Origin: Elusimicrobiota bacterium
GTDB taxonomy: Bacteria > Elusimicrobiota > UBA8919
Length of the DNA: 36,215 bases
Assembly: GCA_028718185.1 (NCBI GenBank)
Contig: JAQUMH010000017.1
Location: 1-36,215, forward strand
Direction: 5' to 3'
The position numbers and the translations under genes were made by a program. The notes below the pieces were generated by a model. That model saw only the letters and a list, made by a program, of their open reading frames with translations. It did no database searches and was not told the origin of the DNA. Numbering within the stretch: position 1 is the first letter of the stretch; every line of letters starts with the position of its first letter. Below are positions 1-36,215 of the stretch, piece by piece.

Positions 1-135
1 CTGATAGAAAAAATTGGGATAGAACGAGTTGAAGCATTAGAGAATAACAATGTATCAAAAAGATGGACAGTAGAAGAACTGAAGCAAATAGAAGAGAAGT
101 ATAAGAAAATGCTGAAAATATTGAAAAATGACTGA
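1..135 (+). CDS. ninG: NinG-like protein, C-terminal fragment (first allele)
   Basis: The window opens inside a reading frame that matches the last 44 codons of the complete NinG-like gene at 35118-35687. The only difference within this coding stretch is AGA versus CGA (base 61 versus 35613), a silent arginine change. It is partial because the window starts here. It is followed by the same zinc-type small gene in both copies, with an 8-base overlap. NinG (Rap) proteins in lambda-like phages act in recombination; nothing about function can be read from this tail alone. Confidence 0.85.
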   Translation: MIEKIGIERVEALENNNVSKRWTVEELKQIEEKYKKMLKILKND

Positions 136-370
136 TGATATTAAGATTAATTACAATTGTTGCCAAAATCCAGCAATAGCTATTTTTGATTATAAATGGC
201 CGCTATGGTCAAATATTGGGAGTCAAGAACTACGCATCAATCGAGTCTGCACCAGATGTTATGCACATTGGACTGGCCCCGTAAATTCAATTAAGAAATA
301 TACAAAGGCCGAGTGGTCGGAACAAATGGATAAAATATTCGATATTAATAAGGAAATTTCAAATGGATAA
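128..370 (+). CDS. Small cysteine-rich (zinc-type) hypothetical protein, allele 1
   Basis: An 80-residue protein overlapping the end of ninG. It has a CC pair near residue 11 and a CTRC (CxxC) motif near residue 41, which suggests a small zinc-binding fold. A diverged allele lies at 35680-35910 (76 residues). The first 25 residues and the TRCY...TKAEW core are shared, but the centre and C-terminus differ. The position after ninG is where lambdoid phages carry nin-region genes and the Q antiterminator, so a regulatory role is possible, but no Q-like feature is visible. The downstream ORF at 363 overlaps its stop. Confidence 0.7.
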   Translation: MTDDIKINYNCCQNPAIAIFDYKWPLWSNIGSQELRINRVCTRCYAHWTGPVNSIKKYTKAEWSEQMDKIFDINKEISNG

Positions 371-530
371 CGGATTACCCTCAATAGATGAGCTAATGTC
401 TGGAGAATATTTAAATAAGCGAGAAATAACTATTCCTGAAGGTAATTTGTTGACGCTTGAACAAATCACTCAGTATTCATTATCTCGCTTAAAAGAAAAT
501 CTCAATACCGACCAACCGAGAAATGCTTAA
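363..530 (+). CDS. Hypothetical 55-residue protein, present only in the first allele
   Basis: It starts at ATG 363, overlapping the stop of the preceding gene, and reads 55 codons to TAA 528-530. The protein (MDNGLPSIDELMSGEYLNKR...) is acidic and probably helical, with no family I recognise. Most of this DNA is missing from the second copy at the right end of the window, where the zinc-type gene ends and the leftward gene follows almost at once. Its 3' end overlaps the convergent gene at 502-657. It is short, so it could be chance, but the coupling favours a gene. Confidence 0.5.
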   Translation: MDNGLPSIDELMSGEYLNKREITIPEGNLLTLEQITQYSLSRLKENLNTDQPRNA

Positions 531-657
531 TAATGGCTTTATTGGAGTTCCAGCAGATTCTACCCATTGGCTGAACCCTAGACCATTTTAGATGGCGAAC
601 TGCACGTTTAATAAAGCGGAAGAAAAGGCAAGTTGACCCACATTTGCGGTATGTCAT
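502..657 (-). CDS. Conserved basic 51-residue micro-protein
   Basis: It starts at ATG 657-655 on the minus strand, preceded by AAGGGGATAAATC, a good ribosome binding site. The protein (MTYRKCGSTCLFFRF...) is basic, with two cysteines near the N-terminus and no known family. The diverged allele at 35900-36052 differs at several codons within the shared 46 residues. All the changes I could align are silent (for example CGC/CGT, CTA/CTT, TGC/TGT, AAC/AAT, AAA/AAG), so selection is acting on the protein. Only the last few residues differ. It is the second gene of a leftward pair after the 669-785 gene. Confidence 0.7.
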   Translation of the reverse strand: MTYRKCGSTCLFFRFIKRAVRHLKWSRVQPMGRICWNSNKAIIKHFSVGRY

Positions 658-668
658 GATTTATCCCC

Positions 669-785
669 TTATAAAACAAACAGCATGATGATATAAAAAT
701 AACCAACCAGCAGAAACAAACTAGCACAAACAAACTCCATGAGCAATTGCACCCAATCAATTTTACTGAAATCAATTCCAAACAT
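669..785 (-). CDS. Single-span membrane micro-protein
   Basis: A 38-residue ORF on the minus strand starting at ATG 785-783 with a consensus GGAGG six bases upstream. After a short polar N-terminus it is one continuous hydrophobic segment (about residues 15-38), so it is predicted to be an inner-membrane peptide. It is the first gene after the leftward promoter at 828-857. The second allele (36064-36180) shows one change, TAT/TAC, which is silent. Too short for similarity searches to be decisive, but the promoter, the binding site and the silent substitution support it. Confidence 0.65.
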   Translation of the reverse strand: MFGIDFSKIDWVQLLMEFVCASLFLLVGYFYIIMLFVL

Positions 786-800
786 ATAGCCTCCGATAAG

Positions 801-829
801 TTGACAGGTCAATCTGACCTTGATAGAAT
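801..829 (+). promoter_or_regulatory. Rightward sigma70-type promoter for the packaging/late operon
   Basis: TTGACA (801-806), a 17-base spacer, then TAGAAT (824-829): a perfect -35, ideal spacing and a good -10. Transcription would start near 836 and run into the 892-22671 gene block. An inverted repeat fills the spacer. The -10 overlaps that of the opposing promoter. Confidence 0.75.
806..820. promoter_or_regulatory. Operator-like inverted repeat 1
   Basis: AGGTCA-ATC-TGACCT is a perfect 6-base dyad placed between the -35 and -10 of the rightward promoter, an ideal position for a repressor. The second copy of the region stops exactly at the end of this dyad (36215). Confidence 0.6.
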
Positions 830-857
830 CATAAACAAGTTAAAGATAACTTGTCAA
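828..857 (-). promoter_or_regulatory. Leftward sigma70-type promoter overlapping the rightward one
   Basis: On the minus strand TTGACA (857-852), an 18-base spacer and TATGAT (833-828). It would drive the two leftward micro-genes at 785-502. Each start point lies within the other promoter, so the two should be mutually exclusive. Confidence 0.65.
835..854. promoter_or_regulatory. Operator-like inverted repeat 2
   Basis: ACAAGTTA-AAGA-TAACTTGT is a perfect 8-base dyad inside the spacer of the leftward promoter and over the predicted start of the rightward one. Its sequence is unrelated to operator 1, so two different proteins may act here. Confidence 0.55.
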
Positions 858-23654: not shown

Positions 23655-23710
23655 CATTAGGTGTGTTTATTAGGATATACACCGATTAAGGTGCATATCA
23701 TACGTTAGGC
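23655..23710 (-). repeat. Terminal attC-like element of array 1
   Basis: It begins with R'' GCCTAAC, which contains the stop of the last cassette gene, followed by a stem (ATATGCACC / GGTGTATAT) and a degenerate R' AATAAAC at 23671-23665, then ACACCTAATG. It is 49/56 identical to the element ending array 2 (34205-34260). The two flanks differ completely right after ATG. Confidence 0.75.
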
Positions 23711-23896
23711 AGCATCATCAAACCAATTTGGCGCATATGCAGCTATGAGCAAAAAAATTGGCCATATAATCGGCAGCGGTGGAACATCCCATACAGGATG
23801 ATTCGCAGCTTTAAACACAGCTTTCGTGCCAAATCCGATAGACAACCATATGAACACCAAAATACAGCTAACAATCGTTTCCACATTCTTCTCCAT
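23705..23896 (-). CDS. Cassette gene: two-span membrane protein
   Basis: A 63-residue protein in the last cassette of array 1. The cassette opens GTTAGGC and the gene's TAA stop lies in its closing GCCTAAC. There are two hydrophobic segments (about 7-26 and 40-55) with a proline-rich link (WDVPPLPIIW). The start ATG lies eight bases from the R' box, with no strong binding site. Membrane proteins of unknown role are common in integron cassettes. Confidence 0.7.
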   Translation of the reverse strand: MEKNVETIVSCILVFIWLSIGFGTKAVFKAANHPVWDVPPLPIIWPIFLLIAAYAPNWFDDAA

Positions 23897-23900
23897 TATT

Positions 23901-23960
23901 GCCTAACAGTTACATCAACACGGACTTCGTTACACTCAGCCGGTTATGTTGGCGTTGGAC
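23901..23960 (-). repeat. attC site, 60 bp
   Basis: R'' GTCCAAC (23960-23954) to R' GTTAGGC (23907-23901). R'' is the exact complement of the GTTGGAC that opens the cassette it closes. Confidence 0.75.
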
Positions 23961-24178
23961 ACACCGTAATGCGATTTTATTTTCTCGATAATCTGCTGCA
24001 TTTGTTCAGTGCGTACAGCGTAAATATCTTGTAGTCCGAGGATAGTTAGTTTTGCAGCACCGCACGACATTAAAAGATCGTGTATGTCCAACCCTACATT
24101 CGAGGCCGACTGCCCTGAAGCATCTTCTTTGTCGTATTGTGTTTGTCCTTCTGGCATATCGTTTAGCATTCCATTCAT
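23936..24178 (-). CDS. Cassette gene with start inside the upstream attC site
   Basis: An 80-residue ORF. The first 30 residues, ending SGQSASNVGLDI, are encoded by the preceding attC; the cassette proper opens at GTTGGAC (24092). AAAGGATGA precedes the first ATG. An internal ATG (before SCGAAKLTILG) could be the native cassette start, giving 44 residues. The last residues (SNANITG) come from the closing attC. Helical core; function unknown. Confidence 0.55.
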   Translation of the reverse strand: MNGMLNDMPEGQTQYDKEDASGQSASNVGLDIHDLLMSCGAAKLTILGLQDIYAVRTEQMQQIIEKIKSHYGVSNANITG

Positions 24179-24217
24179 CCTTTCGTGTTGGGCAGCTGCT
24201 CAATTTTTACGTTGGGC
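24086..24217 (-). repeat. attC site, long (132 bp)
   Basis: R'' GCCCAAC (24217-24211) to R' GTTGGAC (24092-24086). Arms TTGAGCAGCTGCCC and GGGCAGTCGGCCTCGA pair. The terminal region between them holds a ribosome binding site and the ATG of the next ORF. R'' complements the GTTGGGC that opens its own cassette. Confidence 0.75.
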
Positions 24218-24450
24218 ACTTCAAATCCACATGCCAGCATCAACCTCCGCATTGCAATCTCGCTGTTGTGGCGCCCCTTCACACGGCACAAATTATGCGC
24301 CGCATCCGAAATTTCAATCAGCTTGGTACTTCCGGTTTCGTGCGCCACAAAATCCCACGCCATGCGCATCCGTTCGCCAACCGTTGTTTCGCCGGTGTAG
24401 TCATCAATCAAAAACCATAAATCGGTCAGTTGTTTATCCGTCGGTTCCAT
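24175..24450 (-). CDS. Cassette gene: hypothetical 91-residue helical protein
   Basis: The start is taken at ATG 24450, with AAGGGAG five bases upstream, rather than at 24465. The soluble helical protein (MEPTDKQLTDLWFLIDDYTG...) has HNLCRVKGRHNSEIAMRRL. Its end, PNVKIEQLPNTKG, is read from the attC. It overlaps the next start by four bases. Cassette boxes GTTGGGC/GCCCAAC are a perfect pair. Unknown function. Confidence 0.7.
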   Translation of the reverse strand: MEPTDKQLTDLWFLIDDYTGETTVGERMRMAWDFVAHETGSTKLIEISDAAHNLCRVKGRHNSEIAMRRLMLACGFEVPNVKIEQLPNTKG

Positions 24451-24470
24451 GTTTCTCCCTTTCATATGCT

Positions 24471-24535
24471 GCCCAACCCGGCGGTCAAGCGGGACTGCCG
24501 CAAAAGCGCGTCAGTCCCTTACCTTGACGTTAGAG
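24471..24535 (-). repeat. attC site, 65 bp
   Basis: R'' CTCTAAC (24535-24529) to R' GTTGGGC (24477-24471). The arms GGGACTGACGCGC and GCGGCAGTCCC pair almost fully around TTTT, the textbook attC fold. Confidence 0.85.
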
Positions 24536-24702
24536 GGCTTATCATCGCTTTCGTATAATTCCCACAAGTTGTCATATAATATCTTTTCCATTTCCGGGGG
24601 GAGTCGCTGCATATCTGGCGGGTAATGTTCGCAGCCAGTGATGTAACCGAGAGGGCTATCTATACACTGTTTCCCGCATTTCTCGCATATAAAATTACTC
24701 AT
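24511..24702 (-). CDS. Cassette gene: zinc-ribbon-like small protein
   Basis: A 63-residue protein. CEKCGKQC near residues 6-13 and a later GCEHYPP give a possible zinc site. The start lies 16 bases inside the cassette. Its GAGGG binding site is created by the R' junction (GTTAGAGGG), so expression would depend on which cassette sits here. The stop is inside the closing attC and the last seven residues (SNVKVRD) are attC-encoded. Boxes GTTAGAG/CTCTAAC match exactly. Confidence 0.7.
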   Translation of the reverse strand: MSNFICEKCGKQCIDSPLGYITGCEHYPPDMQRLPPEMEKILYDNLWELYESDDKPSNVKVRD

Positions 24703-24711
24703 GGTTCAGCC

Positions 24712-24800
24712 CTCTAACCCTACGCTCAACCGGAGCGCGGCCAGCGTGATGTGTTATTTATCGGTCAGGCGCAGCGCGCCCGGTTAGCTCCACGTTATGC
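24712..24800 (-). repeat. attC site, 89 bp
   Basis: R'' GCATAAC (24800-24794) to R' GTTAGAG (24718-24712), with arms AGCTAACCGGGCGCGC and GCGCTCCGGTTGAGC. Confidence 0.75.
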
Positions 24801-24810
24801 CTCTTTGTCA

Positions 24811-24975
24811 TCAGCGCGCCTTGTCGATCACCGTGTCGCGCGAATACAGCGGGATAAGCCACAACAGCCACCACGTCTCGCGCCGATATATCTCAGTCAC
24901 CTTGTCACTGTTGGCCCATCCGCGTTCCCAAACCCTTGCGCGGCGTTTCAAAAACTTGTCGGTCTTGCGAATCAT
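24811..24975 (-). CDS. Cassette gene: small basic Trp-rich protein
   Basis: A 54-residue ORF from ATG 24975, which has AAAGGA seven bases upstream and overlaps the previous stop (ATGA). The N-terminal half is very basic (KTDKFLKRRARVWERGW). Residues 34-44 (WWLLWLIPLY) form a short hydrophobic patch, perhaps membrane-associated. The cassette opens with GTTAGGC (25011-25005) and closes with GCATAAC, 6 of 7 complementary. Unknown function. Confidence 0.6.
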   Translation of the reverse strand: MIRKTDKFLKRRARVWERGWANSDKVTEIYRRETWWLLWLIPLYSRDTVIDKAR

Positions 24976-25196
24976 GTTTTTGTCCTTTCTTCGTTGCCAG
25001 CAGAGCCTAACCCTGCATTCGAGCGGGACAGCCCAGAATGCGGTTTTTCGCAGCACGAGTACAGAACGCTTCCCTTCGTTCCTTCGGCAATAAAGTCTGA
25101 TGGCTTTCCGCATCCTTTAAATTCGCACGGAGGTCTAGAGTAAAAATTTCTTCCGCCTGCCAGACCTCTTGGGTAAAACTTGAATTCTTCTTTCAT
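24972..25196 (-). CDS. Cassette gene fused to a half attC
   Basis: A 74-residue ORF starting at ATG 25196, with AAGGA eight bases upstream; the longer frame to 25235 lies in the attC. The middle has CEFKGCGKP and SCCEKPH, probably a zinc-binding fold. After that the frame runs straight through an L'-R' half site (GLSRSNAGLGSAG). No R'' is found, so the natural 3' end of this gene and the left half of its attC appear deleted. Confidence 0.6.
   Translation of the reverse strand: MKEEFKFYPRGLAGGRNFYSRPPCEFKGCGKPSDFIAEGTKGSVLYSCCEKPHSGLSRSNAGLGSAGNEERTKT
25005..25034 (-). repeat. Half attC (L'-R' only)
   Basis: GGGCTGTCCCGCTCGAATGC followed by AGG and R' GTTAGGC (25011-25005). The expected R''-L'' half upstream is missing, suggesting a deletion between two cassettes. 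Confidence 0.6.
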
Positions 25197-25221
25197 CGTT
25201 CCATTCCTTGTTAAAACCGGC

Positions 25222-25278
25222 GCATAACCCTCCATTCAAGGCGGACTCCTATCGGAGCCGCTTAATTTCACGTTGGGC
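25222..25278 (-). repeat. attC site, 57 bp
   Basis: R'' GCCCAAC (25278-25272) to R' GTTATGC (25228-25222), with arms GCGGCTCC and GGAGTCCGC flanking a short GATA loop. The length is minimal for attC. Confidence 0.8.
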
Positions 25279-25526
25279 ACCCTCTTTGAAAGATGTCGTA
25301 TCAGCGCTTTTGACGGTATGGCCCGAATCTGTGTCCGCGCTTTTCTTCCTCGCTTATGCATCATATTTTTTGCAATTGCATAGAAAATTAATTTCCTTTC
25401 GTTTTCTTGTTTTAAAAATAGACAAGAAAGTAGCAGGTATCTATCAACTTTAGTGCCCAACACATCATTCAAGCGGGACTGCCCTTCTGCGCGGCTTTCA
25501 TTATTCAATTCAGTCTGGTCGTTCAT
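25236..25526 (-). CDS. Cassette gene with attC-encoded start and end
   Basis: A 96-residue ORF. The start codon, with AAAGGATAACAGAGAA upstream, lies in the preceding attC, and the first 24 residues (ending EGQSRLNDVLG) are attC-encoded. The last 15 (PNVKLSGSDRSPP) come from the closing attC. The cassette-specific core is hydrophobic then very basic (KNMMHKRGRKARTQ). No other ATG near the cassette border; GTG or TTG in GTGTTGGGC could serve instead. Boxes GTTGGGC/GCCCAAC are perfect. Confidence 0.5.
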   Translation of the reverse strand: MNDQTELNNESRAEGQSRLNDVLGTKVDRYLLLSCLFLKQENERKLIFYAIAKNMMHKRGRKARTQIRAIPSKALIRHLSKRVPNVKLSGSDRSPP

Positions 25527-25576
25527 TTCTCTGTTATCCTTTCTCTATGGTGCAGCCCCTTAATTTATCGTTATGC
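25455..25576 (-). repeat. attC site, long (122 bp)
   Basis: R'' GCATAAC (25576-25570) to R' GTTGGGC (25461-25455). Arms AATTAAGGGGCTGC and GGGCAGTCCCGCTTGAA. The start of the next ORF lies in its central part. Confidence 0.8.
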
Positions 25577-25732
25577 CTCACTGTGCGCCCTCACTTTGCG
25601 TAGCTTGGCCGCGTACTTCCGCAGCCGATCGGCGTCATCCCGATGTACCCACTCTTGCACCAGCACTAATCCAGCTTCGCGCTTGCGTTCACGTTCTTCG
25701 GCCTTGCGCTGTGCCGCTGGCGCTGCCGTCAT
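25571..25732 (-). CDS. Cassette gene: ribbon-helix-helix-type regulator/antitoxin candidate
   Basis: A 53-residue protein starting in the stop of the 25729-25914 gene (ATGA). A basic helical N-terminus (AQRKAEERERKREAGL) precedes LVLVQEWVHRDDADRLRKYA, a strand-helix pattern like small ribbon-helix-helix repressors. With the promoter and palindrome upstream of this two-gene cassette, autoregulation as in toxin-antitoxin cassettes is likely, though I cannot name a toxin family. The TAA stop is in the R'' box GCATAAC. Confidence 0.6.
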   Translation of the reverse strand: MTAAPAAQRKAEERERKREAGLVLVQEWVHRDDADRLRKYAAKLRKVRAHSEA

Positions 25733-25914
25733 TTGCACTGCTCGCAGTCACACAGTTTCGCTCCGCGCACTTCGGCCATTGCTTCGCGCTTTGTATCAAA
25801 TCCCCGCACATGCTCTCCGCGTTCTTCAAACCGCCACCCCTTTACCAGTGTCACAATCAGGCTGTTGCCGATTGACCGTTCATCGTCCCAATGCTCAATT
25901 TTCTTGTGCTTCAT
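25729..25914 (-). CDS. Cassette gene: small protein, partner of the RHH regulator
   Basis: A 61-residue protein with AAAGGA upstream. It is the first gene behind the cassette's own promoter. The sequence (MKHKKIEHWDDERSIGNSLI...) has a beta-rich middle (IVTLVKGWRF) and a C-terminal CDCEQC. It is translationally coupled to the regulator gene. It could be the toxin of a pair, or a host-acquired small protein; there is no clear family. Confidence 0.6.
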   Translation of the reverse strand: MKHKKIEHWDDERSIGNSLIVTLVKGWRFEERGEHVRGFDTKREAMAEVRGAKLCDCEQCK

Positions 25915-25943
25915 GATCTGTTCCTTTGTTAAGTTACATGGCC

Positions 25944-25972
25944 ATTATAGCATGTGACATGTCACAAGTCAA
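25944..25972 (-). promoter_or_regulatory. Cassette-borne promoter with operator
   Basis: On the minus strand TTGACT (25972-25967), a 17-base spacer and a perfect TATAAT (25949-25944). The spacer contains the 14-base perfect palindrome TGTGACATGTCACA (25953-25966), an obvious repressor site. Most integron cassettes lack promoters; those that have them often carry toxin-antitoxin pairs. Confidence 0.8.
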
Positions 25973-25977
25973 GTACG

Positions 25978-26037
25978 GAATAACCCTACGTTCGAGCGGA
26001 CTGCTGAGAAGTGCAGCCCCTCAACTACACGTTGGGC
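25978..26037 (-). repeat. attC site, 60 bp
   Basis: R'' GCCCAAC (26037-26031) to R' GTTATTC (25984-25978). The arms TTGAGGGGCTGC and GCAGTCCGCTCGAA pair around ACTTCTCA. Confidence 0.8.
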
Positions 26038-26194
26038 GCTTATTATCTATGGCCTCACGCAACGCAAACCAGATCGCAGTCAATGTGTCCATCAACGCTT
26101 TGATGGCGCAAACCCATCCCATCGTGTTAAAATGGAAACCGAAGCTGAGAATGGCAGCGATTATCCAAAGCACGGAAATCACTTCTTCACTCAT
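26021..26194 (-). CDS. Cassette gene: two-span membrane protein
   Basis: From ATG 26194 it gives 57 residues (MSEEVISVLWIIAAILSFGF...), with hydrophobic segments at about 6-21 and 25-45. A longer in-frame version from 26308 (96 residues) starts inside the upstream attC and encodes the GGQSRLTV stretch. The end (RPTCS) and TGA lie in the closing attC. Opening box GTTAGAG and closing GCCCAAC agree poorly, hinting at cassette exchange. Confidence 0.6.
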   Translation of the reverse strand: MSEEVISVLWIIAAILSFGFHFNTMGWVCAIKALMDTLTAIWFALREAIDNKRPTCS

Positions 26195-26224
26195 GCTGCG
26201 CGTCCATGCTTTCTTGCCGAGGCG

Positions 26225-26348
26225 CTCTAACCTTACGGTCAAGCGGGACTGCCCGCCAGCGTCGTCGTTTTCAGTTTGTGACTGTTCCATCTTCATCGCT
26301 CCGTTCATAGTTCATCGGGCGTACAGCCCCTTAACTCATACGTTATAT
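26225..26348 (-). repeat. attC site, long (124 bp), first of array 1
   Basis: A degenerate R'' ATATAAC (26348-26342) right after the HNH gene stop, arm AGTTAAGGGGCTG, then GGGCAGTCCCGCTTGACC and R' GTTAGAG (26231-26225). An ATG with GGAG lies within, in frame with the membrane-protein gene. Confidence 0.7.
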
Positions 26349-26350
26349 GC

Positions 26351-26890
26351 CTATTTTTCTTCCTTCACAGTGGGAATATCAATCCAGTCAGACCAGTCAT
26401 GGGAGGTATACCACCTTGTTCTATGTTGCAACTTTTTCCCTATAAGCTTATGCCCATCAATCGCCGATTTCCTTGCACAAGCAGCATCAAATAATGTCCT
26501 GTAGCTGCCTAGATGTATTTTTTCATTTTTAAAATCTATAGATGCAATCCATCTCAAATCCCTGTTTCTGTAAAAAACACCCTTTATCCCTGATTTATTA
26601 GTTTTTTGTATCCTTGTATTTATAACTTGCTGTGTTTTTGTTGCCCATCTGCAATTTTCTTTTGAATACCCTTTGTCATTATCAATCCGGTCAAGAGAAT
26701 GATTTTTAGATGGCTTAAATCCCATGTCTTTTATAAAAGCCTCAAATGAAGAATTCCATTCATCGGACACAGTGATTCCTCGCCCGCCATAATAAGGATA
26801 TGCTTTATCTGTAACACAATTACATCTATATCGCATTCCCTTCCAATTAAAATATTCACTGTAACTCTCGTATGGTTTTCCGTTTAACAT
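26351..26890 (-). CDS. HNH homing endonuclease with AP2-like domain
   Basis: A 179-residue protein. Residues 18-90 hold the YGGRGITVSDEW ... LDRIDNDKGYSKENCRWAT signature of phage HNH enzymes. Residues 98-150 (KSGIKGVFYRNRDLRWIASI) look like the AP2 DNA-binding domain. It is a relative of the gene at 34547. It sits at the head of cassette array 1. The first codons contain GTTAAAC, a possible R' box. A 14-codon remnant ORF precedes it, so it may have landed in an existing gene. Confidence 0.8.
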   Translation of the reverse strand: MLNGKPYESYSEYFNWKGMRYRCNCVTDKAYPYYGGRGITVSDEWNSSFEAFIKDMGFKPSKNHSLDRIDNDKGYSKENCRWATKTQQVINTRIQKTNKSGIKGVFYRNRDLRWIASIDFKNEKIHLGSYRTLFDAACARKSAIDGHKLIGKKLQHRTRWYTSHDWSDWIDIPTVKEEK

Positions 26891-33062: not shown

Positions 33063-33401
33063 ATGGATACTGAAATAGACATTTACCGAGTTTTAGACTA
33101 CCTGCGTGATAATGCAGGCAAGTACGCTCAAGCCAAAGCCAATAGAATCTACCTAGAGGAATATAGGAAGGCTTTAAAGGCTAAGTTAATGGTCAAGTAC
33201 CAGAAACAAGGCGTAACGGCTACAGCAGCCCAAGAACGCGATGCCTATGCAGACGATGAATATGACACTCTCTTGGCTGGATTAAAGGAAGCCGTGGAGC
33301 AGGAGGAGCATCTTAGGTGGTTGTTGATTGCTGCACAGGCTAAAGTAAGCGTATGGCAGAGTTTAGGTGCTAATGCTAGGGCAGAAAGTAAGAATGTATA
33401 A
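33063..33401 (+). CDS. Conserved phage helical protein after DnaB
   Basis: A 112-residue, charged helical protein (KYAQAKANRIYLEEYRKALK, then AQERDAYADDEYDTLLAGLK) of a type often found beside phage replication genes; exact function unknown. Just upstream lies a GTTTA-AAG-TAAAC palindrome (33042-33054). Its TAA stop falls in a GTATAAC box that begins cassette array 2, so it may be the border gene. Confidence 0.75.
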   Translation: MDTEIDIYRVLDYLRDNAGKYAQAKANRIYLEEYRKALKAKLMVKYQKQGVTATAAQERDAYADDEYDTLLAGLKEAVEQEEHLRWLLIAAQAKVSVWQSLGANARAESKNV

Positions 33402-33504
33402 CGTTCAAATTGAGGCGCGGCAACATGGCGGATTTTGACGCACAACGTAAAGATAAGGGGCTGACGCGCTTCTGCGGCAGTCCCTCTTGACCGCCGGGTT
33501 AGCC
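33396..33504 (+). repeat. Composite first attC of array 2
   Basis: GTATAAC (33396-33402) with a left-half sequence, then a full 65-bp site from R'' GCACAAC (33440-33446) to R' GTTAGCC (33498-33504), with arms AAGGGGCTGACGCGC and GCGGCAGTCCC. It may be two fused sites. Confidence 0.75.
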
Positions 33505-33528
33505 AAGCAGAATAAAGGAGATAACTGA

Positions 33529-33681
33529 ATGTCAAAACTTTATGTACGACCACCAAGTATTGAAAATTTAATTTCATATTTTGTAGAGTGGATTGCAAGA
33601 AACATGAGAGCAAGAGTAACTATTAATGTTTATTGGCATGACGGAAAACATTTTACCGAAGAATCAGATGGTAGGGGCTAA
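33529..33681 (+). CDS. Cassette gene: hypothetical 50-residue protein
   Basis: It starts at ATG 33529 with AAAGGAGATAACTG upstream. The protein (MSKLYVRPPSIENLISYFVE...) has a helix then strands (RVTINVYWHDGKHF). AT-rich compared with the other cassettes. The TAA stop sits in the closing box GGCTAAC, exact complement of the opening GTTAGCC. No family known. Confidence 0.7.
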   Translation: MSKLYVRPPSIENLISYFVEWIARNMRARVTINVYWHDGKHFTEESDGRG

Positions 33682-33736
33682 CGTATGAGTTAAGGCCGAT
33701 GCCGGAGGCGGTCGCGCCTTGAACGACGGGTTAGAA
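33676..33736 (+). repeat. attC site, 61 bp
   Basis: R'' GGCTAAC to R' GTTAGAA. Arms GTTAAGGC and GCCTTGAAC enclose a GC-rich stem GCCGGAGGC. Confidence 0.85.
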
Positions 33737-33759
33737 CGCATTTTACAATGGAACGGTAC

Positions 33760-34023
33760 ATGACAACACGAAAAGAATATGAAGCGTGGGCAAAACATGC
33801 GGTGCATAAAACGGTAGGTGATTTACTGTGGGCATGTTGGGAAAAATCTGCATCCTTGGAACGTGAATCTTGCGCTCGGATTTGCGATTTGCAAACAAAA
33901 GAACCTGAATGTCCAGAACGTGCTGCATATTGTGCAGAAGCTATACGCAGGCGTTCTAACAATCAAGTTAAGGCCGACGCCGAAGGCGGTCGCGCCTTGA
34001 ACGCAGGGTTAGACGATGACTGA
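33760..34023 (+). CDS. Cassette gene: cysteine-containing helical protein
   Basis: I take ATG 33760 (87 residues); ATG 33748 is possible. The helical core has MTTRKEYEAWAKHAVHKTVG, then ERESCARICDLQTKEPECPE with four cysteines in the ORF. The last 22 residues (SNNQVKADAEGGRALNAGL and DDD) are translated from the closing attC. The stop overlaps the next gene. The closing box TTCTAAC complements GTTAGAA exactly. Function unknown. Confidence 0.7.
   Translation: MTTRKEYEAWAKHAVHKTVGDLLWACWEKSASLERESCARICDLQTKEPECPERAAYCAEAIRRRSNNQVKADAEGGRALNAGLDDD
33954..34014 (+). repeat. attC site, 61 bp
   Basis: R'' TTCTAAC to R' GTTAGAC. Very similar to the preceding site (AAGTTAAGGCCGACGCCG versus AGTTAAGGCCGATGCCG), as expected for sites from one source integron. 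Confidence 0.87.
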
Positions 34024-34210
34024 ATGGAAAGACCGAAAGATTACGCAGGCATGGGCGATAATCAAGCCGAACGGCGATATTTTGCTTGATAGCGACTTTG
34101 CGAATGAGTCCCACGCTTGGCAGATTGCACTGGGCTGGCCGAGCGATGACGAGATAGCAGAGGCAAAGAATAACGGCTACCGCGCAGTGTTTGCGGCGGT
34201 GGTCGTCTAA
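34016..34210 (+). CDS. Cassette gene: hypothetical 64-residue protein
   Basis: It starts one base after the R' box and overlaps the previous cassette's stop. A compact alpha/beta protein (MTEWKDRKITQAWAIIKPNG...), low in cysteine, ending GYRAVFAAVVV. The TAA lies in the closing GTCTAAC, exact complement of GTTAGAC. It is the last cassette before the terminal element. Confidence 0.7.
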   Translation: MTEWKDRKITQAWAIIKPNGDILLDSDFANESHAWQIALGWPSDDEIAEAKNNGYRAVFAAVVV

Positions 34211-34260
34211 CGTATGATATATACCTAAAAAGGTGTATATCCTGATAAACACACCTAATG
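34205..34260 (+). repeat. Terminal attC-like element of array 2
   Basis: R'' GTCTAAC, then the stem GATATATACCT-AAAA-AGGTGTATATC, a degenerate R' GATAAAC (34244-34250) and ACACCTAATG. Homologous to 23655-23710 at 49 of 56 bases. Confidence 0.75.
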
Positions 34261-34265
34261 AACTT

Positions 34266-34448
34266 ATGACCTGCCAAAACTGTAAACACTGGAAGATTAT
34301 ATCCACAACTGGAAGTGAGCGTGGTGACATCCAGATGGCTAATTTTAATTACAAGAACTGTTCAGTAGATCACTCAAAATGGGCAGCATTCAGGTTTTTA
34401 AACGGAAACACTAAGGGGTGCGACAAGTTTGAAGATAAAAAAGTGTGA
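34266..34448 (+). CDS. Small zinc-binding protein
   Basis: From ATG 34266 (60 residues; an upstream GTG frame would read through the terminal element and is unlikely). MTCQNCKHW at the start, then C32 and GCDKF near the end give four cysteines, probably a zinc site. It is the first phage-type gene after array 2. No good ribosome binding site, perhaps because insertion of the array changed its 5' region. Confidence 0.6.
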   Translation: MTCQNCKHWKIISTTGSERGDIQMANFNYKNCSVDHSKWAAFRFLNGNTKGCDKFEDKKV

Positions 34449-34546: not shown

Positions 34547-35164
34547 ATGGGAATTTTCTCAAAAAAAGCAAATTTGCTTGGGATGACATTTGGAATATGG
34601 AATGTAATATCTGAAGCAAAACCAATAAAAAAAATATCAATGTGGACATGCAGATGTGAATGCGGAAAAGAAAAAGATGTTGCCGCATCATCGCTGAAAA
34701 GCGGGACAAGTTCTGGTTGTGGAAGTTGTGGTAGAAAAAAGCATGGTATGTCACATACTGGAGCTTATAAATCATGGTGTGCAATGATGTATCGAACAAG
34801 CAGCTCTAAACATATTGCCTATAACAGGTATGGAGGAAGAGGAATAACTGTTTGTGATAGATGGCATTTATTTGAGAATTTTTATGAAGATATGGGGGAA
34901 AGGCCTAATGGAAAAACATTAGATAGAATTGATTATGATGGTAATTATTCAAAAGAAAATTGTAGATGGGCAACATATATTCAACAATCTAACAATACAT
35001 CATTTAATCATGTTGTTATATTCAATGATACTGAATATACAATAGCTCAACTTTCAAAACATTTGTCAATTAAATATACAACATTAAGACGCAGAATTAT
35101 AACTGGAGGTGTATTAGATGCCCCAATTAAAAGTGGTAAAAAGCAAGAAATGCGCAAATTGTAA
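34547..35164 (+). CDS. HNH homing endonuclease next to ninG
   Basis: A 205-residue protein with AAGGA upstream. An N-terminal zinc finger (CRCECGKEKD ... CGSCGRKK) is followed by the YGGRGITVCDRW ... LDRIDYDGNYSKENCRWAT signature, shared with the gene at 26351. The C-terminus has a short helix-turn-helix (TIAQLSKHLSIKYTTLRRRI). It overlaps ninG by 47 bases, as inserted homing genes often do. Confidence 0.82.
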   Translation: MGIFSKKANLLGMTFGIWNVISEAKPIKKISMWTCRCECGKEKDVAASSLKSGTSSGCGSCGRKKHGMSHTGAYKSWCAMMYRTSSSKHIAYNRYGGRGITVCDRWHLFENFYEDMGERPNGKTLDRIDYDGNYSKENCRWATYIQQSNNTSFNHVVIFNDTEYTIAQLSKHLSIKYTTLRRRIITGGVLDAPIKSGKKQEMRKL

Positions 35165-35687
35165 AAAACAATTCATCCCAGATCGTCCACTCCAGCAAGT
35201 ATGCTCATATAAGTGCGCCATTGTATTTGGTGCCAGAAAGATGGCAAAAGAAGAAACAAAGCGAAAGAATATAGTTAAGAAACAAATTAAAGAGCAAAAA
35301 GAAGCATCACAGCCGCTTAAATACTGGAAGGATAAGGTTCAGGTAGTATTTAATGCTTATATCAGGGCGAGAGATGGAAAGGTTTGTATAAGCTGCGGAA
35401 CTACTAATTCAAACATAGTTTATTGCGCTGGGCATTTCAGGACAAGGAAAGCCGCAGACCAGCTTAGATATAATGAGGACAACGTGCATTCCCAGTGCAA
35501 TTTTCACTGCAACTCACAATTAAGTGGGAATATTGCCAATTATCGCCCCGCACTGATAGAAAAAATTGGGATAGAACGAGTTGAAGCATTAGAGAATAAC
35601 AATGTATCAAAACGATGGACAGTAGAAGAACTGAAGCAAATAGAAGAGAAGTATAAGAAAATGCTGAAAATATTGAAAAATGACTGA
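35118..35687 (+). CDS. ninG: NinG/Rap-like recombination protein
   Basis: A 189-residue protein. CANC at residues 12-15 and CSYKC at 29-33 form a first zinc site. C90-x2-C93, H106, C127, H130 and C131 (CISC ... AGHFRTRK ... SQCNFHCN) form the HNH-like NinG core. In lambda-like phages NinG/Rap cuts recombination junctions and works with annealing proteins, here the ERF protein. Its last 135 bases recur at the left end of the window. Confidence 0.88.
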   Translation: MPQLKVVKSKKCANCKKQFIPDRPLQQVCSYKCAIVFGARKMAKEETKRKNIVKKQIKEQKEASQPLKYWKDKVQVVFNAYIRARDGKVCISCGTTNSNIVYCAGHFRTRKAADQLRYNEDNVHSQCNFHCNSQLSGNIANYRPALIEKIGIERVEALENNNVSKRWTVEELKQIEEKYKKMLKILKND

Positions 35688-35910
35688 TGATATTAAGATT
35701 GATTACAATTGTTGCCAAAATCCAGCAATAGCTATTTTTGATTATAAATGGCCTTTATTTACAGATAAAGGAGATATACGAGAACTGCGCATTAATCGGA
35801 TATGCACCAGGTGTTACACTCATTGGGCTGGCCCTGTAGATTCAATAAATCAATATACAAAGGCCGAGTGGGCTAAATACATAGATGATGTATTTAAGAT
35901 TAATAATTAG
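35680..35910 (+). CDS. Small cysteine-rich hypothetical protein, allele 2
   Basis: A 76-residue homologue of the 128-370 protein with the same CC and CTRC motifs; the centre (TDKGDIRELRINRI) and C-terminus differ. It overlaps ninG by eight bases, and its end overlaps the convergent gene at 35900. Confidence 0.7.
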   Translation: MTDDIKIDYNCCQNPAIAIFDYKWPLFTDKGDIRELRINRICTRCYTHWAGPVDSINQYTKAEWAKYIDDVFKINN

Positions 35911-36052
35911 TTCCGAAGTGTTTAATAATAGCCTTATTGGAATTCCAACAGATTCTACCCATTGGCTGAACCCTTGACCATTTAAGATGACGAACTGCAC
36001 GTTTAATAAAGCGGAAGAAAAGGCAAGTTGACCCACATTTGCGGTATGTCAT
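35900..36052 (-). CDS. Conserved basic micro-protein, allele 2
   Basis: 50 residues. The first 46 are identical to the 502-657 protein despite several base changes; only the tail differs (HFGTNY versus HFSVGRY). Preceded by the same binding site. Confidence 0.7.
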   Translation of the reverse strand: MTYRKCGSTCLFFRFIKRAVRHLKWSRVQPMGRICWNSNKAIIKHFGTNY

Positions 36053-36063
36053 GATTTATCCCC

Positions 36064-36180
36064 TTATAAAACAAACAGCATGATGATGTAAAAATAACCA
36101 ACCAGCAGAAACAAACTAGCACAAACAAACTCCATGAGCAATTGCACCCAATCAATTTTACTGAAATCAATTCCAAACAT
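36064..36180 (-). CDS. Single-span membrane micro-protein, allele 2
   Basis: Same 38-residue product as 669-785, with one silent base change (TAC for TAT) and the same GGAGG. Confidence 0.65.
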   Translation of the reverse strand: MFGIDFSKIDWVQLLMEFVCASLFLLVGYFYIIMLFVL

Positions 36181-36215
36181 ATAGCCTCCGATAAGTTGAC
36201 AGGTCAATCTGACCT

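Follow-up and report, generated by a model that had tools for sequence, protein, structure and literature searches.

Clusters of attC sites and gene cassettes in phage genomes that lack an integrase, known as phage CALINs, have already been published, including one in the phage MW202573, and recombination by IntI1 of attCs from other phages has also been reported (Qi et al., 2023; PMC9892861). The stretch of phage DNA analysed here (36,215 nt in full; hereafter the window) contains two cassette arrays that are integron-like and yet lack two defining features of integrons, namely an integrase of their own and the canonical polarity of cassettes; their activity is predicted. In common with a CALIN, the window has at least two attC sites and no intI gene; however, it is not an orphan cluster devoid of attI, because attI-like sites end both arrays, and thus the arrays are not plain CALINs.

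Structure of the Two Cassette Arrays

Array 2, in the right arm, comprises three cassettes (33440–34211), each bounded by perfectly complementary boxes: GTTAGCC (33498)/GGCTAAC (33676–33682), GTTAGAA (33730)/TTCTAAC (33954–33960), and GTTAGAC (34008)/GTCTAAC (34205–34211). These three cassettes had been named in the original prediction and are confirmed by direct reading and by covariance model matches. The extent first given to them (33396–34260) was too wide: 33440–34211 stands, 34211–34255 is an attI-like site rather than a cassette, and 33396–33439 is the remnant of a fourth, truncated cassette (Table 1). This remnant precedes the first attC of the array and follows the upstream phage gene, whose stop codon is overlapped by the first box of the remnant (GTATAAC). 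The ORFs of exchange units 1 and 3 have a TAA stop exactly at the crossover AA|C; the ORF of exchange unit 2 continues through the box into the following attC.

Array 1 (23.7–26.35 kb) lies ~7 kb away and, as had been proposed, points the other way, with its ORFs on the opposite strand to those of array 2; the cassette genes of both arrays follow local transcription, also as proposed. Array 1 includes eight attC sites at E ≤ 0.05 and one degenerate site, and two of the seven box pairs tested are imperfect. Its DNA gave no match when compared with plasmids, and when compared with phages matched MW202573 only. Read in the direction of the genes, each array has a box without attC at its right end and an attC at its left end, as expected given crossover at AA|C. 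HNH endonuclease genes (26351–26890 and 34547–35164) directly adjoin the two arrays, and could be homing elements or array-associated genes. The two ends of the window (1–830 and 35552–36215) are near-identical diverged copies encompassing the end of ninG, a small paralogous ORF, and intergenic DNA; the contig may represent a circular genome closed across strain variation, or one that bears a duplication.

Table 1. Coordinates of array components and neighbouring genes in the window.
Feature	Position	Strand	Evidence or remark
Array 1 attC sites 1–4	23901–23960, 24086–24217, 24471–24535, 24712–24800	+	CM R1
Array 1 attC sites 5–8	25222–25278, 25455–25576, 25978–26037, 26225–26348	+	CM R1
Array 1 degenerate attC	near 25005–25088	+	CM R1
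Array 1 exchange units	23705–26343	-	ORFs opposite to attC model strand
attI-like docking site, array 1	23660–23704	+	AGGTGTGTTTATTAGGATATACACCGATTAAGGTGCATATCATACG|TTAGGC; host-attI PWM 16.6; blind host-attI HMM match
HNH endonuclease gene upstream of array 1	26351–26890	-	PHROG
Conserved phage gene upstream of array 2	33063–33401	+	TAA stop is left edge of docking site
Truncated cassette remnant with half an attC	33396–33439	+	Sequence
attC site 2a	33440–33504	-	CM R1, E 3.2e-17; boxes GCACAAC/GTTAGCC in gene direction
attC site 2b	33676–33736	-	CM R1, E 1.1e-6; boxes GGCTAAC/GTTAGAA; DNA fold
attC site 2c	33954–34014	-	CM R1, E 1.5e-5; boxes TTCTAAC/GTTAGAC; DNA fold z -2.7
Exchange unit 1	33446–33681	+	attC 2a leader and ORF 33529–33681 (50 aa)
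Exchange unit 2	33682–33959	+	attC 2b leader and ORF, start 33748 or 33760
Exchange unit 3	33960–34210	+	attC 2c leader and ORF 34016–34210 (64 aa)
attI-like docking site, array 2	34211–34255	-	Minus strand AGGTGTGTTTATCAGGATATACACCTTTTTAGGTATATATCATACG|TTAGAC; host-attI PWM 13.9; duplicated element
Conserved phage gene downstream of array 2	34233–34448	+	Homologue in L005 and MW202573

attC Sites

The attC sites were identified with a covariance model (R1) built from 16 bacterial attC sites and the plasmid aadA1 attC, with phage sites excluded; the training set is not fully independent, because the bacterial attCs were reached with a 25-base search pattern that came from phage sites. The attC model search advised in the original prediction matched both arrays. 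With filters off, R1 matches all three attCs of array 2 (best E 3.2e-17, at 33440–33504) and, in array 1, 24471–24535 (7e-16) and the sites beginning at 25222, 25978, 24712, 23901, and 25455; with default filters, the sites at 24086 and 26225 are also found. Beyond the two arrays the window has no match of comparable score, and 848 kb of related phage loci yield zero matches at E ≤ 0.05. The two arrays support each other, in keeping with the view that two of them make a chance resemblance unlikely. In the alignments to the model, the sites have their boxes, the arms pair, and one arm has extrahelical bases; the cassettes between them form attC-bounded arrays with complementary boxes, as in integrons. 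When folded as DNA, two of the three attCs of array 2 form the box and arm pairing, and one is no better than shuffled sequences as naked DNA. A scan of the window against Rfam returned nothing at gathering thresholds, and an early arm-alignment scanner for attC was discarded for excessive noise.

Searches of both strands with patterns that contain no gene sequence located attCs of the same type in 36 bacterial loci, mostly of Gallionella, Sideroxydans, Nitrotoga, Nitrosomonas, and relatives, and in about 25 viral contigs. The viral loci checked for phage genes encode portal, head-tail adaptor, phage DNA polymerase, DnaB, and RecE proteins, as well as terminase in L318. Perfect boxes (7/7) occur in 53 of 80 viral cassettes, against 7.2 expected from shuffled pairs. 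In phage TJE1, a chain search returned no matching boxes.

attI-Like Docking Sites

Both arrays of the window end in one shared 45-bp element, C|GTATGATATRYACC(6)GGTGTATATCCTRATAAACACACC; the junction of this docking site with the array end reads C|GTATGATAT, and the site includes the repeats GGTG/ATATACACC. The ends of other viral arrays have a related form, AAC-N5-WTRKRCACC. For comparison with bacteria, 21 of the 33 genomes to which the bacterial loci belong yielded intI genes, and the host sequence between intI and the first cassette resembles the window end (e.g., GGATATACACCGATTTCGGTGTCTACATTACG|TTAGGC in L202 vs. GGATATACACCGATTAAGGTGCATATCATACG|TTAGGC in the window; 25/32). The docking site had been considered a possible truncated attC, an idea rejected once host attI sites were obtained.

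A blind HMM built from eight host attIs only, and searched against 2 Mb, matches the end of array 1 (E 0.07) as well as the array ends of viral loci L005 (0.046) and L163 (0.053). Using a 24-base PWM derived from twelve host attIs, the ends of array 1 (16.6) and array 2 (13.9) are the top two GTT sites of the window, the next scoring 4.6; the 10,421 other GTT sites in array-bearing viral loci all score lower than the window ends (maximum 11.0). By these measures, attI-type sites are present, and the likeness extends past the GTT/GWT core, contrary to what characterises attG sites. Among 17 viral array ends, 10 have at most one background site that scores equally high; the array ends of L164, L186, L151, and L198 have no attI resemblance, and no attI was found in MW202573 at the threshold used. 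The highest background score (11.0) belongs to position 335 of L181, a contig with cassette arrays of its own, and this site may be a real attI overlooked as an array end. The exact docking-site pattern gave nothing but unrelated chance matches in viral contigs, and a scan with a 19-base attI pattern gave mostly chance matches, from which PWM filtering then retrieved L318. No empty attI was found near terminase in relatives, the sole high scorer being the filled site of L005.

Orientation and Content of the Cassettes

In both window arrays, R1 matches the strand opposite to the ORFs, whereas in known integrons (plasmids L103 and L104, and the Vibrio phage integron L101) it matches the gene strand. 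Canonical cassettes have the ORF oriented as the attC and the attC 3′ of the gene; neither array is organised in this way. According to a codon-based score, 55 viral cassettes are inverted, 2 are canonical, and 26 are unclear, vs. 5 inverted, 38 canonical, and 18 unclear among bacterial cassettes of the same type (Fisher p 1e-19), although this score is wrong on one of four control cassettes, so that single calls are noisy. ORF length alone, which calls all four controls canonical, gives 42 inverted to 6 canonical for viral cassettes and 3 inverted to 45 canonical for bacterial ones. Short ORFs leave about a third of the orientation calls unclear; the counts include a small duplication, in that one viral array is present twice (L155, L176), and cassettes that share an array are non-independent. 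Given attCs opposite to their genes, the phage cassettes are not ordinary captured bacterial cassettes. Because the genes run toward attI, a Pc promoter at the attI side would give antisense transcripts of the cassettes.

Under crossover at AA|C, the exchange unit consists of attC, ORF, and stop, in that order, read toward attI. The 102 ORFs predicted in viral cassettes include 22 whose stop is exactly the TAA of the box and 19 whose start codon falls within the attC, with N-termini that are attC-coded (e.g., MNDQTELNNESRAEGQSRLNDVLG). Extended attC loops with a ribosome-binding site and ATG are present at L141 516–1145, L161 5038–5608, L198 866–1834, and window 25455–25576; the attC arm in such loops encodes a recurrent N-terminal peptide (e.g., GQSRLNVGL).

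Among 19 viral cassette proteins, the families assigned by Pfam are N6/N4 methylase (2), C5 methylase, MT-A70, PAPS reductase-like, and DUF3850; the cassette proteins of the window that were searched belong to no Pfam family. The cargo (small proteins without an assigned role, DNA methyltransferases, and similar genes) plausibly serves in counter-defence. A PAPS reductase-like protein is encoded as a phage cassette in L143 (9912–10853), and is possibly linked to DNA phosphorothioation.

Sister Phages and Natural Variation

Two contigs from one metagenome, L093 and L005, are closely related to the window phage (97% aa identity for the helicase in L093 and 91% for the terminase in L005), and flank an array at the position of array 2, with flanks and attI as in the window and different cassettes. 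L005 has an end box complementary to the first box of the last L093 cassette (GTTGGGGG), which suggests that the two contigs are pieces of one sister-phage genome. An earlier concern, that the arrays might be an assembly chimera with host DNA, is answered by this sister phage, recovered from another metagenome with the same flanks and different cassettes.

Viral contigs L163 and L318 come from different metagenomes and share an identical stretch of 598 bp, after which L318 has exactly one extra cassette at attI, between ...GACGCACAA| and |CGTAATATAGACACC; this cassette has matching boxes (GTTAGGC/GCCTAA). L093 and L163 have a methyltransferase cassette in common (86% DNA identity), with similarity from the attC onward. 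MW202573, which is more distantly related, has an inverted array at the position of array 1. At the array 2 position, MW202573 (L092, 28046–28738) encodes an adenine methyltransferase for which no attC is recognisable; this may be a fossil or may stem from another insertion.

Integrase and Host

A search with TIGR02249 found no integrase on the window contig, only matches below cut-off on assembly contigs C1 and C4, and tblastn with six IntI proteins found none, either in the window or among the other viral array loci searched. Without an intI gene the window is not a complete integron; with two attI-like sites and no integrase found, the phage has two docking sites without an enzyme of its own. 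The genome bin that holds the window belongs to a rare, small class, and is probably not the integrase donor, since two sampled pieces of its contigs are lower in GC than the phage (32–34% vs. 43%), and no other attC and no IntI were found in it. No integron was found in the bin or its class at 1e-80, a level at which control genomes are equally blank. Bacteria of the Gallionellaceae/Nitrosomonadales type are the predicted hosts.

Proposed Mechanism and Alternatives

The reading that we strongly favour is that the phage has two integrase-less "hitchhiker" integrons that depend on host IntI acting in trans and draw on an inverted cassette pool. Under this model, each of the two would consist of an attI of the type found in chromosomal integrons of Gallionellaceae/Nitrosomonadales, located at the 3′ end of a phage segment that is transcribed, and loaded with cassettes. 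In the course of infection, host IntI would recombine the folded strand of a cassette attC with the phage attI, with single-stranded attC supplied by phage replication; crossover at G|TT (AA|C in the gene direction) would lead to one cassette gained or lost per event. Because attI is downstream of the genes, a cassette ORF must be inverted relative to its attC for expression by phage transcription, and selection for expression toward attI would keep the ORFs inverted. The viral exchange unit would then be the mirror image of the bacterial one, having attC as a 5′ leader, followed by the ORF, with the TAA often at the crossover. The original prediction that cassettes are repeatedly acquired where they will be expressed was incomplete: acquisition would be at two copies of a host-type attI, and the attCs are opposite to the genes.

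The alternative that present shuffling is due to homologous recombination between phages, with attC and attI as relics that act as homology islands or translational leaders/terminators, could draw on the Erf-like annealing protein encoded by the phage, the sequence likeness of attC sites, and the truncated cassette within array 2; we nevertheless consider it very unlikely, given that the L163/L318 indel sits at the crossover AA|C and that complementary boxes are kept within cassettes (53/80). Had the phage passively taken up part of a host chromosomal integron array, whether by homologous or by illegitimate recombination, the result would be an ordinary phage CALIN, of which examples are known (PMC9892861), and the attCs are indeed of host type. 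Yet host arrays are canonical and the phage arrays inverted; there are two separate arrays with an attI at the end of each; a different array occupies this point in the sister phage; and the L163/L318 difference is a precise indel of one cassette at attI, all of which make this very unlikely. Alternatively, host IntI might have placed the cassettes at GTT sites of the phage that are not specialised for this, with no true attI involved; non-canonical use of attG sites by IntI is known (PMC12901181), and some viral array ends fail attI scoring. This can hardly be reconciled with window ends that share a duplicated 45-bp element and outscore all other GTT sites under the host-attI matrix, or with the conservation of the docking element in the sister phage. 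As for hairpins arising by chance, regulatory repeats of the phage, or a chimeric assembly, the window is a single metagenomic contig with divergent near-copies at its ends, but the covariance model E-values (down to 3e-17), the lack of matches in related phage DNA, and the same architecture in independent metagenomes leave this with a negligible probability.

Returning to integrase-less integrons served by host IntI, a broader proposal is that unrelated phages of betaproteobacteria maintain a dedicated, mirror-image cassette pool, kept distinct from that of the host through ORF polarity and exchanged via phage attI and host IntI, in which the attC acts as a ribosome-binding leader and codes for the N-terminus, so that N-termini would be swapped; we regard this as evenly poised between right and wrong. 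If the model is true, phages operate gene-collecting platforms of their own with an enzyme borrowed from bacteria, and reversed polarity keeps a separate phage cassette pool; this would account for the rapid replacement of small accessory genes and methyltransferase genes in these phages. The way in which phages sample counter-defence genes becomes testable. CALIN annotation that ignores attI and gene polarity will overlook such arrays.

Comparison with Known Integron-Related Systems

In the literature searched, in which subscription papers and preprints are thinly covered so that a prior report is possible, there is no description of attI-anchored, inverted, integrase-less phage arrays. The array of MW202573 has inverted polarity, as in the window; the portions of PMC9892861 considered here describe neither an attI at the end of that array nor genes inverted relative to attC. 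The same source describes a CALIN in the Shewanella prophage M16-3 in which a second attI opens an attC array without an adjacent intI; this prophage, which is regarded as cryptic, also has a complete integron with intI, and inverted polarity is not reported for it in those portions (PMC9892861).

The sedentary chromosomal integrons of Gallionellaceae/Nitrosomonadales (L202–L224, L105–L140) have the same attC type, attI type, boxes, and crossover as the phage; in these bacteria, however, intI is beside attI and the ORFs run away from attI, whereas the phage has no intI and its ORFs run toward attI. Insertion of cassettes at attG is also IntI-mediated, at G|TT outside an integron, but the window sites match attI well past the GTT core. 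Hitcher elements (as a concept; PMC11389934) likewise function through enzymes supplied in trans by another genome; here, by contrast, the borrowed enzyme would build an array of accessory genes within the phage.
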